From the NCBI GenBank assembly GCA_018650845.1, contig JABIFF010000021.1, forward strand, positions 80,163 through 121,759: a DNA stretch of 41,597 bases, read 5' to 3'. The notes under the pieces were generated by a model. That model did not search any database. It worked only from the letters and a program-made list of their open reading frames with translations, and was not told the DNA's origin. Within the stretch, counting starts at the first letter, position 1; every line of letters starts with the position of its first letter. The translations under genes were made by a program, and so were the position numbers. Positions 6,858 through 41,292 of the stretch are shown piece after piece. This stretch comes from Chloroflexota bacterium. GTDB lineage: Bacteria > Chloroflexota > Dehalococcoidia > Lucifugimonadales > Lucifugimonadaceae.

Positions 6858-6886
6858 TGTCATCCTGAATTCATTTTCAGGATCTA
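6858..6886 (+). repeat. Dispersed palindromic repeat, family A copy 1
   Basis: The stem ATCCTGAA (6862-6869) pairs with TTCAGGAT (6876-6883) over a 6-base loop and is preceded by CTGTC. Related copies lie at 7841, 17066, 28081 and 31807. In two of them the third stem pair is T-A instead of C-G, so pairing is kept while the sequence changes. Confidence 0.8.
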
Positions 6887-6933
6887 TCGCTCACCTCCCA
6901 CAACTCTCAGCCCAGCCAACGGCACATCACCAT

Positions 6934-7840: not shown

Positions 7841-7872
7841 GTCATCCTGAATTCACTTTCAGGTTCTATCTC
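7841..7872 (+). repeat. Dispersed palindromic repeat, family A copy 2
   Basis: GTCATCCTGAATTCACTTTC is followed by AGGTTCTATC. The stem CCTGAA (7846-7851) pairs with TTCAGG (7858-7863). It lies right after lexA and closely resembles copy 1, including the trailing CTATC. Confidence 0.75.
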
Positions 7873-17054: not shown

Positions 17055-17065
17055 ACCTTGCCCGT

Positions 17066-17092
17066 TGTCATTCTGAACTCGATTCAGAATCA
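17066..17092 (+). repeat. Dispersed palindromic repeat, family A copy 3
   Basis: ATTCTGAA (17070-17077) pairs perfectly with TTCAGAAT (17083-17090), preceded by GTTGTC. Compared with copy 1, the third base pair is T-A instead of C-G. It sits directly after nth in a 228-bp gap that otherwise shows only a weak possible tRNA promoter (TTTACA at 17207). Confidence 0.8.
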
Positions 17093-17282: not shown

Positions 17283-17357
17283 GGCCTCGTCGTCCAGCGG
17301 TTAGGACACAGCCCTTTCAAGGCTGAGACCGGAGTTCGATTCTCCGCGGGGCTACCA
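17283..17357 (+). tRNA. tRNA-Glu (anticodon UUC)
   Basis: A full cloverleaf of 75 nt includes the encoded CCA. Acceptor stem GGCCTCG/CGGGGCT has a G-U first pair; the D stem is GTCC/GGAC; the anticodon stem CAGCC/GGCTG has loop CTTTCAA (anticodon TTC); the T stem CGGAG/CTCCG has loop TTCGATT. The discriminator is A. The gene is followed 10 bases later by a strong terminator. Confidence 0.95.
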
Positions 17358-17400: not shown

Positions 17401-17537
17401 ATGCCTAAATCCTCGACAACCACCCCGTTCAGGCATACGATTCCGCCATATAAGTCACCTCAGCGATACTGATGTTTGGTGGCTCTCCAATAACAACCAC
17501 AACCGCACGCCAATATCCACCAACTTCACCAATCCGT

Positions 17538-17660
17538 CCTCCCTCCTTCGGGAGGGAGTTAGAGGGTGGGTAGATTGCAGCTCGGAGCCGAGTCATTTGA
17601 TGACGAGCGCGACTAAACGAGATTGCAGCGGCGACCAAGTCACGACAGTGACGCCCGGAG
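17538..17660 (+). repeat. Composite palindromic repeat, family D copy 1
   Basis: Three hairpins in order: CTCCCTCC-TTCG-GGAGGGAG (17539-17558, with a UUCG tetraloop), GTCAT-TTG-ATGAC (17592-17604) and GTCAC-GACA-GTGAC (17639-17652). Between them lie the family's conserved links AGTTAGAGG, GATTGCAGC and ACGAGCGCGACTAA. The element ends in CGCCCGGAG, 12 bases before the TTG start of the dehydratase gene, so it seems to supply that gene's ribosome binding site. Confidence 0.85.
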
Positions 17661-17672
17661 CAAATCAAGCCC

Positions 17673-21583: not shown

Positions 21584-21787
21584 GTCCTCCCCCGTCACGG
21601 GGGAGTTAGAGGGGGAGATTGCAGCTAAAGCCGAGTCATCCGATGACGAGCGCGACTAGCGCCAGATTGCAGCGAGGTCCAAAGTCATCCAATGACGCCC
21701 GGACCAAACGGTCCTCCCCCGTCACGGGGGAGTTAGAGGGGGAGTTTGCAGCTAAAGCCGAGTCGTCCGATGACGAGCGCTGCACTA
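21584..21787 (+). repeat. Composite palindromic repeat, family D, tandem double copy
   Basis: Two near-identical units are spaced 127 bp apart. Each starts with CTCCCCC-GTCAC-GGGGGAG (21587-21605 and 21714-21732) followed by TTAGAGGGGGAG, TTGCAGCTAAAGCCGAG and a GTCAT-CCG-ATGAC-type hairpin (21635-21647; in the second unit GTCGT with a G-U pair, 21762-21774). A third hairpin GTCAT-CCA-ATGAC (21684-21696) followed by GCCCGG links the units. The element ends 20-25 bp from the stop of the dehydrogenase gene. Confidence 0.88.
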
Positions 21788-21809
21788 AAACGCCAAAACG
21801 TCCAGCCCG

Positions 21810-27957: not shown

Positions 27958-28080
27958 TGAATTTATCTCTCTGGAAACTGCAATCAACATCGCCCGCATA
28001 GGGTGGGGCGTCGATGGACGCAAATACTACGCCTGAAAACGCTTTGATAAAACTTCACACGCCCTAAATTCACCAGCGTT

Positions 28081-28106
28081 GTCATTCTGAACTAGATTCA
28101 GAATCA
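28081..28106 (+). repeat. Dispersed palindromic repeat, family A copy 4
   Basis: GTC then ATTCTGAA (28084-28091) pairs with TTCAGAAT (28097-28104) over CTAGA. It is nearly identical to copy 3 after nth and lies between the divergent amidohydrolase and MFS genes. Confidence 0.8.
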
Positions 28107-28155: not shown

Positions 28156-29511
28156 GTGACAACACCCGCCCACACTAACCAGCCTGAATTCCGCCGATGG
28201 CGAAACCGCGTGCTCTTCAGCTACTCGGCGTTCTATCTGTTCGTCTACATGGGTCGATTCAACCACTGGCCAGCCGGCCCAGTCATGCGGGAACAACTCG
28301 ACTTCTCCCATGTCGAACTCGGCATCATCAACGCCTGCCTACTCTGGGGATTCGCGCTCGGCGGTATGACCCACGGCAGAATCGCCGAAACCTACGGATA
28401 TAGATTCTGGCTAGTCGCTGGAACTCTCGCATCTGTCGCACTCAACTGGGTCACCAGCTTCGGAACCGGTTTGTGGACCATCGCAATACCGTGGGGACTC
28501 AACGGATTCGCTAACGCAACAGTCTGGGCACCCGGAATCGGAATGCTCGCCCAATGGTGGCATCGAAGCCAACGCGGGCGAGTGATGGGACTCGTAGGCG
28601 TAGCCGCAGGATCGGCGATGCTGATGATGTGGCTAATAACCGGCTGGACCGTCGCTGAATTCGGCTGGCGAGCTGCATTCCGCTACCCGCCATTACTAAT
28701 GATCCCCGCAGCAGTAGCACTGTTCTTCCTCGTCAGAGATCGCCCTTCCGACGTCAAGCTCGAAAATCTCGATCAACGCGGCACGATGCATTCCTCAGCC
28801 ACTTCCCTCCCGGACCGGGAGGGATCGAGGGAGGGAGATTTGGGACCCAAGGACGAAAGTCCGCCCGGTCCTTCACGCCTGACAGAGTCACGAGCGCGAC
28901 TAACGAAAGAAGACGCCCCACACGGCCCATTCACCGCCTACAAAATCCTCTACACAAACTGGCGATTCGTAGCGACATCTCACGTAAAGGGACTCGAAAA
29001 CGTAGTCCGATACGGGCTCACAACATGGGCGCCCCTCTACTACTTCGAAGAAGCCGGACTTTCCATCGAAACGACAGCCCTCGTAACCGTGGCACTGCCA
29101 GTCGGATATCTCACAGCACCAATGGTTTCAGGCTGGATATCCGACGTACTACTCAATGGACGACGCTCCCCCATGATCGCCGCATCCGCGCTGATTTCAG
29201 CCGCAGCGTTAATCGGACTCGCCATCGTCCCGGCTGAAAATGTTTACGCTGGAGCGGGGTTACTCTTCATCGGCGCATTCGCCATGAGCCTCTCGATGAC
29301 ATCGACTCTCGTAGTCGATATGGCCGGCCCGCGATACGCAGCCACAGCAAGCGGAATCCTCGACGGCCACGGCTACGTCTACGCCGGCGCCCAAGCAATA
29401 ATCTTCGCCCTAGTACTCGACACTACAGGCGCCCCATGGCACCTCGTATTCCTAGGAATGGCAGGAGCAAGAATCCTCTCCGCCCTAATCGCCTGGCGAG
29501 TAAAGTTTTAG
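28156..29511 (+). CDS. MFS transporter (OPA/phosphate-ester antiporter-like) with repeat-derived loop
   Basis: The 451-residue protein has 12 predicted helices. The start YSAFYLFVYMGRFNHWPAGP and the MTHGRIAETYGYR loop resemble the organophosphate:phosphate antiporter (GlpT/UhpT-like) branch. The substrate is unknown. The central cytoplasmic loop between helices 6 and 7 (about residues 206-255) is unusually long and hydrophilic. About 40 residues of it (SLPDREGSREGD ... TESRARLTK) are encoded by an in-frame copy of intergenic repeat D. The start is GTG 28156. Divergent from the amidohydrolase. Confidence 0.85.
   Translation: MTTPAHTNQPEFRRWRNRVLFSYSAFYLFVYMGRFNHWPAGPVMREQLDFSHVELGIINACLLWGFALGGMTHGRIAETYGYRFWLVAGTLASVALNWVTSFGTGLWTIAIPWGLNGFANATVWAPGIGMLAQWWHRSQRGRVMGLVGVAAGSAMLMMWLITGWTVAEFGWRAAFRYPPLLMIPAAVALFFLVRDRPSDVKLENLDQRGTMHSSATSLPDREGSREGDLGPKDESPPGPSRLTESRARLTKEDAPHGPFTAYKILYTNWRFVATSHVKGLENVVRYGLTTWAPLYYFEEAGLSIETTALVTVALPVGYLTAPMVSGWISDVLLNGRRSPMIAASALISAAALIGLAIVPAENVYAGAGLLFIGAFAMSLSMTSTLVVDMAGPRYAATASGILDGHGYVYAGAQAIIFALVLDTTGAPWHLVFLGMAGARILSALIAWRVKF
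28801..28913 (+). repeat. Family D palindromic repeat inside an MFS coding region
   Basis: Hairpin CCCTCCC-GGACC-GGGAGGG (28805-28823), then GAGGGAGGGAGATT, hairpin GGAC-GAAA-GTCC (28851-28862, GNRA loop) followed by GCCCGG, then GAGTCACGAGCGCGACTAAC (28885-28904) and TAACGAAAGAAGA (28901-28913). All these parts occur in the intergenic D copies. The last 13 bases recur in inverted orientation at 31634-31646. The frame stays open throughout. Confidence 0.85.
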
Positions 29512-31633: not shown

Positions 31634-31777
31634 TCTTCTTTCGTTACGTGCCGGGCGTCATCGAATGACTTGGGCACAGGGCAGCTATCGTATCGGCTCC
31701 GGGCGTCACTTACGTGACTTGGGAGCATGCGACACATAGCCACCCTCTAACTCCCTCCCGCTCTGGGGAGGGACAAC
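31634..31777 (-). repeat. Composite palindromic repeat, family D, inverted copy
   Basis: Read on the minus strand it carries TCCCTCCC/GGGAGGGA (31752-31773), then hairpins GTCAC-TTAC-GTGAC (31705-31718) and GTCAT-CGA-ATGAC (31657-31669), and ends in TAACGAAAGAAGA (31646-31634), three bases from the SDR start codon. Positions 31648-31677 are the exact reverse complement of 41263-41292 (30 of 30 bases). Confidence 0.88.
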
Positions 31778-31806
31778 CAACTAACAATCCATCCAAATAC
31801 CGGCAC

Positions 31807-31833
31807 TGTCATGCTGAACTTGATTCAGTATCA
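31807..31833 (+). repeat. Dispersed palindromic repeat, family A copy 5 (imperfect)
   Basis: TGTC then ATGCTGAA (31811-31818) pairs with TTCAGTAT (31824-31831) with one G-T mismatch. It adjoins the inverted D copy and lies near the end of the aldo-keto reductase gene. Confidence 0.7.
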
Positions 31834-41072: not shown

Positions 41073-41292
41073 GCAAGGATGATGTCCCAAGTCCTTGAAC
41101 GACGCCCGGATCTATCGGTCCTCCCCCGGATAGGGGGAGTTAGAGGGGGAGATTGCAGCTAAAGCCGAGTTACGCCAGTAACGAGCGCGACTAACGAGAG
41201 GGGGAGATTGCGACGCGGAGCCGAGTCATTCGATGACGAGCGCGACTAACGCCATATAACGCGTGCCCAAGTCATTCGATGACGCCCGGCAC
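41073..41292 (+). repeat. Composite palindromic repeat, family D, multi-unit copy
   Basis: In order: CAAGGA/TCCTTG (41074-41097), GCCCGG, CTCCCCC-GGATA-GGGGGAG (41121-41139), TTGCAGCTAAAGCCGAG, hairpin GTTAC-GCCA-GTAAC (41169-41182), ACGAGCGCGACTAACGAGA, a second GGGGGAGATTG, hairpin GTCAT-TCG-ATGAC (41225-41237), the same links again, and GTCAT-TCG-ATGAC (41271-41283) ending GCCCGGCAC. It follows MutS2 directly and has the most units of any copy here. Confidence 0.88.

Follow-up and report, generated by a model that had tools for sequence, protein, structure and literature searches.

The transporter gene and its in-frame repeat

The window, i.e. the whole stretch of 41,597 nucleotides analysed, belongs to a draft assembly of 2.48 Mb (G000) and contains an MFS (OPA/GlpT-like) transporter gene together with several copies of a palindromic repeat, family D, one of which lies in frame within the transporter (Table 1). 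Judged by the MFS protein, the closest named relative is Candidatus Lucifugimonas marina JH1073 (92% identity); its genome (G041) belongs to the same genus and is closed, in one contig of 3,094,136 bases. Passages of PMC10444878 place Ca. L. marina in the SAR202 clade of Chloroflexota and describe a genus of marine bacteria for which a closed genome and cultured strains exist.

The in-frame copy has the module order A-C-B. Module A consists of CCCTCCC (28805-28811), GGGAGGG (28817-28823) and the purine strand GAGGGAGGGAGATT (28827-28840); in module C the outer arms GGACC (28843-28847) and GGTCC (28867-28871) enclose the inner hairpin GGAC-GAAA-GTCC (28851-28862), followed by GCCCGG (28863-28868); the module B region includes CACGAGCGCGACTAAC at 28889-28904. 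All the modules that the original prediction had named in this loop are present at 28803-28905 and score above background, rather than no better than shuffled sequence. The frame is open throughout, as had been proposed, with 218 open codons before and 201 after the copy in G000; the insert is, however, nearer to 34 residues (about 217-250) than to the 40 expected.

The modules are those of the intergenic family. A covariance model, R1, trained on 25 aligned D copies from outside the MFS gene and never shown the MFS copy, finds 28803-28905 with 29.7 bits and an E value of 4.3e-4 over the 2.48-Mb genome; the runner-up in the 1.8-kb region reaches 10.6 bits, on the opposite strand and partly overlapping the MFS copy. 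At 29.7 bits the copy is degenerate. Module B is 96% identical over 26 nt to a G000 copy located outside long ORFs; the A-C part has 88% identity over 66 nt with a copy from the congener G054, likewise outside long ORFs, in which the inner hairpin of module C recurs. Folding of the insert alone gives no significant stability (z -1.62, with 12 of 200 shuffles equally stable).

Table 1. Positions of the transporter gene, the repeat copies and associated features (window coordinates unless a genome or locus is named).
Feature	Position	Strand	Evidence or remark
tRNA gene	17283-17354		Rfam; directly before the full A-B-C D copy at 17538
Intergenic D, full A-B-C	17538..17661	+	R1 82.2 bits over 17538-17618
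Intergenic D, A-B	21585..21661	+	R1 92.9 bits; C module next at 21664-21696
Second, tandem intergenic D copy	21712..21788	+	R1 78.2 bits
MFS (OPA/GlpT-like) transporter gene	28156..29511	+	GTG start, 451 aa, Pfam MFS_1 4e-48
In-frame D copy, modules A-C-B	28803..28905	+	about residues 217-250; R1 match
Module A, CCCTCCC/GGGAGGG hairpin and purine strand GAGGGAGGGAGATT	28805..28840	+	sequence, family consensus alignment
Module C, outer GGACC/GGTCC, inner GGAC-GAAA-GTCC, GCCCGG	28843..28871	+	sequence
Module B, TGAC-AGA-GTCA hairpin and CGAGCGCGACTAACG	28880..28905	+	96% over 26 nt to G000:C21:14808-14833
Intergenic D, A-C-C	31648..31771	-	R1 38.3 bits (31691-31771), 17.0 bits (31657-31689)
Intergenic D array, A-B, B, C	41119..41292	+	R1 87.0, 41.3 and 15.4 bits; C by sequence
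Further short palindromes	17063-17092, 28077-28106, 31804-31833; 6859-6888, 7841-7870
Antisense D copy in phosphotransferase	G000:C12:35448-35524 (L053:591-1787:-)	antisense	R1 90.0 bits, in frame
Second hairpin family	L221, L224, L223 (cobyric acid synthase), L003:9234, L151:1609		inside and outside genes

Family D in the genome and in the genus

Family D copies are assembled from hairpin modules as mosaics, with A followed by B and/or C. In module A a C/T-rich hairpin is accompanied by a third purine strand, module B elsewhere in the window reads GAGTCA..TGACGAGCGCGACTAACG, and module C is made of an outer stem, CAAG, an inner stem and CGCCCGG. The third purine strand of module A tends to track the hairpin arms (GGAGGGAG..GAGGGTGGG and GGAAGGAG..GAGGAAGGG; window 17538-17571, 21589-21618 and 28805-28840, and the training alignment), so that the pyrimidine arm could pair with either purine strand or make a triplex. 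Further short palindromes, GTCATTCTGAACT..ATTCAGAATCA and GTCATCCTGAATTC..TTCAGGAT, are frequently found close to D copies. Rfam models, applied at gathering cut-offs over the window, return the tRNA alone.

Among 111 distinct C modules in the fetched loci, 46 have the form N3-CC, and 40 of these form all three variable outer pairs, with a mean of 2.87 of 3 compared with 1.80 when partners are shuffled (shuffle maximum 2.15); the test omits the 65 modules without this form, 48 of which have unpaired flanks (GCGAC/AGC), and leaves the kinship of copies uncontrolled. Since the outer-stem partners covary, the N3-CC class appears to propagate as a hairpin, and the MFS copy still looks hairpin-like.

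Over G000, R1 yields at least 90 matches at E<=1 and at least 71 at E<=0.01, the MFS copy included, and 51 of the latter reach 50 bits or more; over G041 it yields at least 103 at E<=0.01; all these counts are minima, because at most 150 first-look candidates were scored per genome (in G000, 150 of about 800). Matches are present in 14 genomes of the genus. The five of the 19 without a match at E<=0.01 are G042, G043, G046, G047 and G048, with completeness of 79-86%.

Alignment of orthologous intergenic slots reveals that D copies differ between species. The gap of the tandem pair at 21585 and 21712 has a single copy in the Ca. L. marina locus (L003), and the L003 slot that matches the window copy at 31.7 kb is occupied by a different hairpin, belonging to a second family described below. 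The window copy at about 17537-17664 is 82% identical over 130 nt to an in-gene copy of Ca. L. marina in an alcohol dehydrogenase (ADH). Presence/absence variation, as in MITEs, is found at intergenic slots, in the MFS loop, at the ADH site and in a phosphotransferase; when filled and empty slots are aligned, the edges are too diverged to read any duplication.

The loop in orthologous transporters

MFS orthologues, searched in 76 genomes of the family with a cut-off of E<=1e-100, are found in 15, 14 of which belong to the genus. At nine orthologous loci gene order near the transporter is mostly collinear with the window, L009 and L010 being rearranged downstream. Thirteen orthologue loops are readable (L129 and L130 are not), and four of them contain D sequence: G000 and G041 have the same A-C-B insert, G057 has two tandem A-B copies and G049 a rearranged D. 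The loop of G045 contains a different palindrome (HHEPVEG), with kin sequences elsewhere in the genus, and the other eight have no recognisable repeat. Over the window and 12 orthologous loci, R1 matches within MFS genes are confined to this loop, with 29.7 bits in the window, 21.0 in L003, 34.1 and 25.2 in L008 and 22.6 in L009. The copy of Ca. L. marina falls below the genome-wide cut of E<=0.01; its 21.0 bits correspond to E 0.0048 in the small search. A DNA search with the tandem insert of G057 gives three matches in the G057 genome, itself among them. An unrelated palindrome (..EPVEG/ELVEG/ERVEG..) is seen in the same MFS loop at L011:6676 and in P0051, P0087, P0096 and P0097.

Five congeners (G055, G058, G052, G056, G051) have 45-49 residues between the anchors, compared with 77 in the window, and the R1 matches in their genomes range from at least 25 to at least 138 (25, 31, 39, 85 and 138). 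Because these D-bearing congeners lack the insert, sequence comparison makes it very likely that the MFS copy is an in-frame insertion, common to the window and Ca. L. marina. The expectation of a clean absence in orthologues was borne out as to absence and not as to cleanness: the insert edges are not base-perfect and no target duplication is readable, since the flanking loop residues have diverged. None of the eight repeat-less loops (0/8) has the loop sequence of the transporter in the window, so the original prediction was not refuted on this point. The proposal of a repeat inserted in frame is thereby supported, transposition itself being deduced.

Distant proteins (P0102-P0121, with 52-58% identity, among 121 aligned) also have short loops, and for this reason absence of the insert is likely to be the ancestral state. 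A tree built without the loop includes 113 of the 121 rows, leaving out P0002 (identical to P0001), rows above P0115 and short rows. Loop types were set on it by regular expressions on the protein sequence, so that remnants may be present in P0037 and P0098, which received the label 'none'. At least 10 changes of the D label are required on this tree, three of them forced by strongly supported branches. Near relatives of P0001 have loops with D like that of P0001 itself (P0003), with D of a different type (P0031), with another palindrome (P0051) or with nothing (P0017). Part of this variation may reflect loss or recombination, and not new insertion.

An AlphaFold2 model of the transporter, built from 64 sequences, has a mean pLDDT of 87, with residues 210-227 and 236-252 below 50; this stretch sits between a long helix ending at 192 and a helix starting at 260. 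The nearest solved structures include SLC37A4 and GlpT (1pw4). In OPA-family carriers the segment between helices 6 and 7 joins the two halves of the protein on the cytoplasmic side. The insert is predicted to be a disordered loop between these helices, and the OPA-type MFS fold, together with the prediction, indicates that the loop would be cytoplasmic.

Copies in other conserved genes

Open frames were measured around 90 G000 matches, and the 71 at E<=0.01 were rechecked. The genome-wide covariance search for coding matches that had been suggested thus places two of these 71 in frame inside conserved genes, the MFS copy and an antisense copy in a phosphotransferase. The latter, one of the 25 training copies of R1, lies 70 codons from one end of an ORF of 399 codons; Pfam APH (1.9e-11) matches after the insert, and a weak likeness to an aminoglycoside kinase of known structure is found on both sides of it. 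An orthologue located beside ADH in G041 (63% identity, in the part available) is without the D stretch, as is a paralogue with 30% identity. The remaining G000 matches fall outside long ORFs, sit at the edge of a gene, or lie in ORFs; none of the latter that were scanned has a Pfam domain.

In G041 all 104 candidates (103 R1 matches and the MFS copy) were examined, and four of the 103, together with the MFS copy, lie inside four conserved genes. The three further genes with D in frame code for cobyric acid synthase, ADH and RadA. Two G000 and six G041 ORFs that are open through D have no Pfam match and were not counted as in-gene; a phosphoribosyltransferase ORF of G000 (L101) was likewise not counted, as D lies ahead of the domain and possibly also ahead of the genuine start.

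Cobyric acid synthase (an NCBIfam equivalog) has orthologues in 5 of the 19 genomes, G041 included, and in G041 carries two tandem D copies at about residues 450-503 of P0142. No such D pair is present in the readable loops of G053, G057 and G050 (G049 is unreadable there). The second hairpin family (TTCTCCC..GGGAGAAGG; TTCTCCC..GGGAGAAGGCTAGGTTGAGG) is also found in frame in this enzyme, in different loops in G041 and G050. A protein search with the cobyric acid synthase insert returned a single protein, which shares the Pfam domains and is 98% identical in that region, and a region-limited search with P0007 200-290 was swamped by matches to the MFS flanks; for these reasons protein searches could not list further hosts.

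For the zinc-dependent ADH, whose best NCBIfam match, below cut-off, is TIGR00692 (L-threonine 3-dehydrogenase), the alignment comprises the 11 genomes with a match of at least 73% identity, of 19 with any match. D inserts are found in G041, G051, G052 and G057, and the site is empty in the other seven, G000 included. The G041 insert (A-B-C) is 87% identical over 132 nt to a G000 copy outside long ORFs, while that of G051 is a near-canonical A-C copy (86.2 bits); thus, inserts with common flanks differ in the repeat subtype they contain. Before the insertion point the ADH of G051 (L243) is nearly identical to that of G056 (L245), and the insert and the downstream part are G041-like, which suggests that recombination spreads the ADH insert between species.

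RadA (equivalog) of G041 has a D copy that runs against the gene, within the linker preceding the ATPase domain (54.3 bits; 86% identity over 63 nt to other copies), and RadA of G055 has a stretch that looks like a decayed D relative. Of the five host proteins the transporter was the one modelled, and the model predicts that its insert would occupy an exposed, structure-tolerant position.

Reading frames and sequence change

Module B is read in phase 2 in MFS (G000 and G041), in phase 1 in the second cobyric acid synthase copy and in phase 0 in ADH (G041, G052, G057). The tandem MFS copies of G057 are in phases 0 and 2; the B motif of the first has three substitutions, like background sites, and this copy was identified by R1 (25.2 bits). 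For module C each of the three phases is represented, and D runs antisense to the gene in RadA as well as in the phosphotransferase. Because no forward frame is left unused and two genes carry D antisense, the inserted peptide is unlikely to be a selected product. For copies of at least 30 bits and more than 60 nt (68 in G000 and 92 in G041, in-gene copies included), the mean number of open forward frames, out of three, is 0.87 and 0.85, respectively, with 1.38 and 1.10 in reverse; with some 0.85-0.87 forward frames open per copy, an insertion that leaves the frame open is therefore not rare.

Between G000 and G041 the insert has a pS of 0.175 and a pN of 0.095, compared with 0.41-0.48 and 0.02-0.03 in the two halves of MFS; pN/pS is thus about 0.5 in the insert and about 0.05-0.07 outside. 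The lower pS is significant by a Fisher test (p 0.008) on rounded synonymous counts from two sequences. In the outer stem of module C two pairs have changed on both sides (GGACC/GGTCC to GAGCC/GGCTC). Selection, gene conversion and recent arrival all fit a hairpin-like in-gene copy in two sequences.

Strand orientation

The orientation of D is bound to the replichore. In G041, 66 of the 70 copies located from 3.0 Mb through zero to 1.73 Mb are on the minus strand, and 27 of the 34 in the remainder are on the plus strand. Orientation follows the local GC skew, calculated with D masked, both in G041 (Fisher 2.8e-11; 2.3e-5 on 45 clusters) and in G000 (1.4e-4; 0.0026 on 38 clusters). The in-gene copies of G041 keep the rule, including the RadA copy opposed to its gene. 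Copies are segregated by strand along the G041 chromosome at 548-797 kb and 2.09-2.92 Mb; they are also crowded in a stretch of about 250 kb, where most sampled loci have a GC skew of +0.13 to +0.33.

A Y1 (RAYT) transposase (PF01797) was found in 0 of 19 genus genomes by a search that is positive in 5 of 14 control genomes. The strand bias suggests insertion at single-stranded lagging-strand DNA, and it offers a hint of the mechanism by which the repeats could spread when no transposase is evident.

Comparison with known repeats

Palindromes that code in frame are already known; Rickettsia provides the best documentation, and further cases come from Wolbachia, enterobacteria and genomes with REPs. 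Passages of PMC2229807 and PMC3767692 describe the Rickettsia palindromic elements (RPEs) as repeats of about 100-150 bp, both intergenic and in frame in conserved genes, at exposed positions, with different repeat groups sometimes at nearby sites in orthologues. Like RPEs and the Wolbachia palindromic elements, D was found here both between genes and in frame inside ORFs; differently from them, it belongs to another phylum and to seawater-cultivated rather than intracellular organisms, and it has a modular A/B/C build, a replication-strand orientation and unrelated repeats sharing one loop. D appears to work like RPEs, a parallel drawn on behaviour and not on sequence similarity.

REPs are presented in parts of PMC3733652 as short hairpins, mainly intergenic and at times in coding regions, with loops and linkers proposed as tolerant sites; some CGTC REPs are tabulated there without a Y1 transposase. 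GTAG- and CGTC-tagged REPs and REPIN/RAYT systems resemble D in being short hairpins, mostly intergenic and in some cases coding, but the Y1 transposase of REP/RAYT systems was found in none of the 19 congeneric genomes. By eye, no unpaired GTAG tag is recognised in D, and part of the CGTC seen on the minus strand in modules B and C is taken up by inner-stem pairing. The enterobacterial elements RU-1, RU-2 and RU-3, small mobile repeats with open frames fused to known proteins such as L-threonine 3-dehydrogenase according to passages of PMC2759123, share with D the open frames in known proteins; however, the RU-1 case in that enzyme is, in those passages, a C-terminal addition, whereas D is internal, in frame, and has empty orthologous sites. 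Elements of IS200/IS605 type, which target the lagging-strand template as stated in part of PMC6006769, have a replication-strand orientation as D does; unlike them, D is a mosaic devoid of genes, and the search of the 19 genomes yielded no Y1 transposase.

The listings of the open-access literature searched included no SAR202 report of such repeats, and in the cultivation paper (PMC10444878) the words 'repeat' and 'palindrom' are absent from the text covered by a word search. The SAR202 case is an independent instance of protein-coding palindromic repeats; what it adds to those known is the recurrence of different repeats in one loop, the use of all frames and both strands, and the replication-strand orientation.

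Origin of the insert

It is very probable that 28803-28905 is an intergenic D copy that was inserted in the MFS frame and is tolerated as a loop, with no selected peptide. The insertion most likely took place before the split from Ca. L. marina, and the prediction is that translation of the copy gives a disordered loop connecting helices 6 and 7. Most D insertions into genes would presumably be lost, while a protein would tolerate an insertion that preserves the frame within a surface loop or linker; this would explain the copies in MFS, the phosphotransferase, cobyric acid synthase, ADH and RadA. Loops would thus be tolerant landing sites, where repeats arrive, are exchanged and decay.

A GC-rich, low-complexity loop that resembles D by chance has a practically negligible probability and was rejected: its fold energy is unexceptional, but the blind genome-wide E value, the identities to copies outside long ORFs and the R1 matches in the MFS loops of four orthologues, that of the window included, stand against coincidence. 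Co-option of the peptide for a useful role in the transporter, e.g. in regulation or partner binding, was also rejected as highly improbable. The frame is kept in two species, and similar peptides (LPDREG...KDESP.G) occur in MFS of P0003 and P0030; however, D is read in all forward frames and antisense in two genes, the G057 tandem copies are read in two frames within a single loop, the insert has a high pN/pS and predicted disorder, and the repeat type differs among close relatives.

An insert kept for a role as nucleic acid, in which mRNA hairpins located between the two halves of six helices would delay translation or make the transcript more stable, is unlikely. The lower pS of the insert, with its higher pN, and the two outer pairs of module C changed on both sides agree with it, but they come from a comparison of two sequences, in which gene conversion or insertion after the split gives the same pattern; moreover, five congeners keep the frame intact without the hairpins, and the D-like RadA stretch of G055 looks decayed. 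Somewhat more credible, although still doubtful, is that the loop insertions are not independent landings and derive from one ancient, vertically inherited insertion, later lost or overwritten in many lineages. P0030, outside the tree cluster of the window, has the A-C peptide too, and the strongly supported branches force only three D-label changes; against this are the different architectures (A-C-B, two tandem A-B, rearranged D), the unrelated palindrome that fills the same loop in G045 and P0051, and the different ADH subtypes within the flank-sharing inserts of G041 and G051.

Beyond the preferred reading of an inserted and tolerated D copy, a broader proposal is tentative: the fast-evolving loops of SAR202 core proteins may be built and refreshed, to a sizeable extent, by several unrelated intergenic hairpins that some enzyme would place strand-specifically at the replication fork, the hairpin persisting and being exchanged as DNA and any open frame being read. 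If so, protein loops would evolve as a by-product of repeat turnover. In passages of the Rickettsia study (PMC3767692), both hotspots and a single insertion that later diverged are left as explanations of shared sites. Since unrelated repeats share one loop and orthologues with empty sites exist, the hotspot question, together with the effect of an insert on an enzyme, is now directly testable in this genus.
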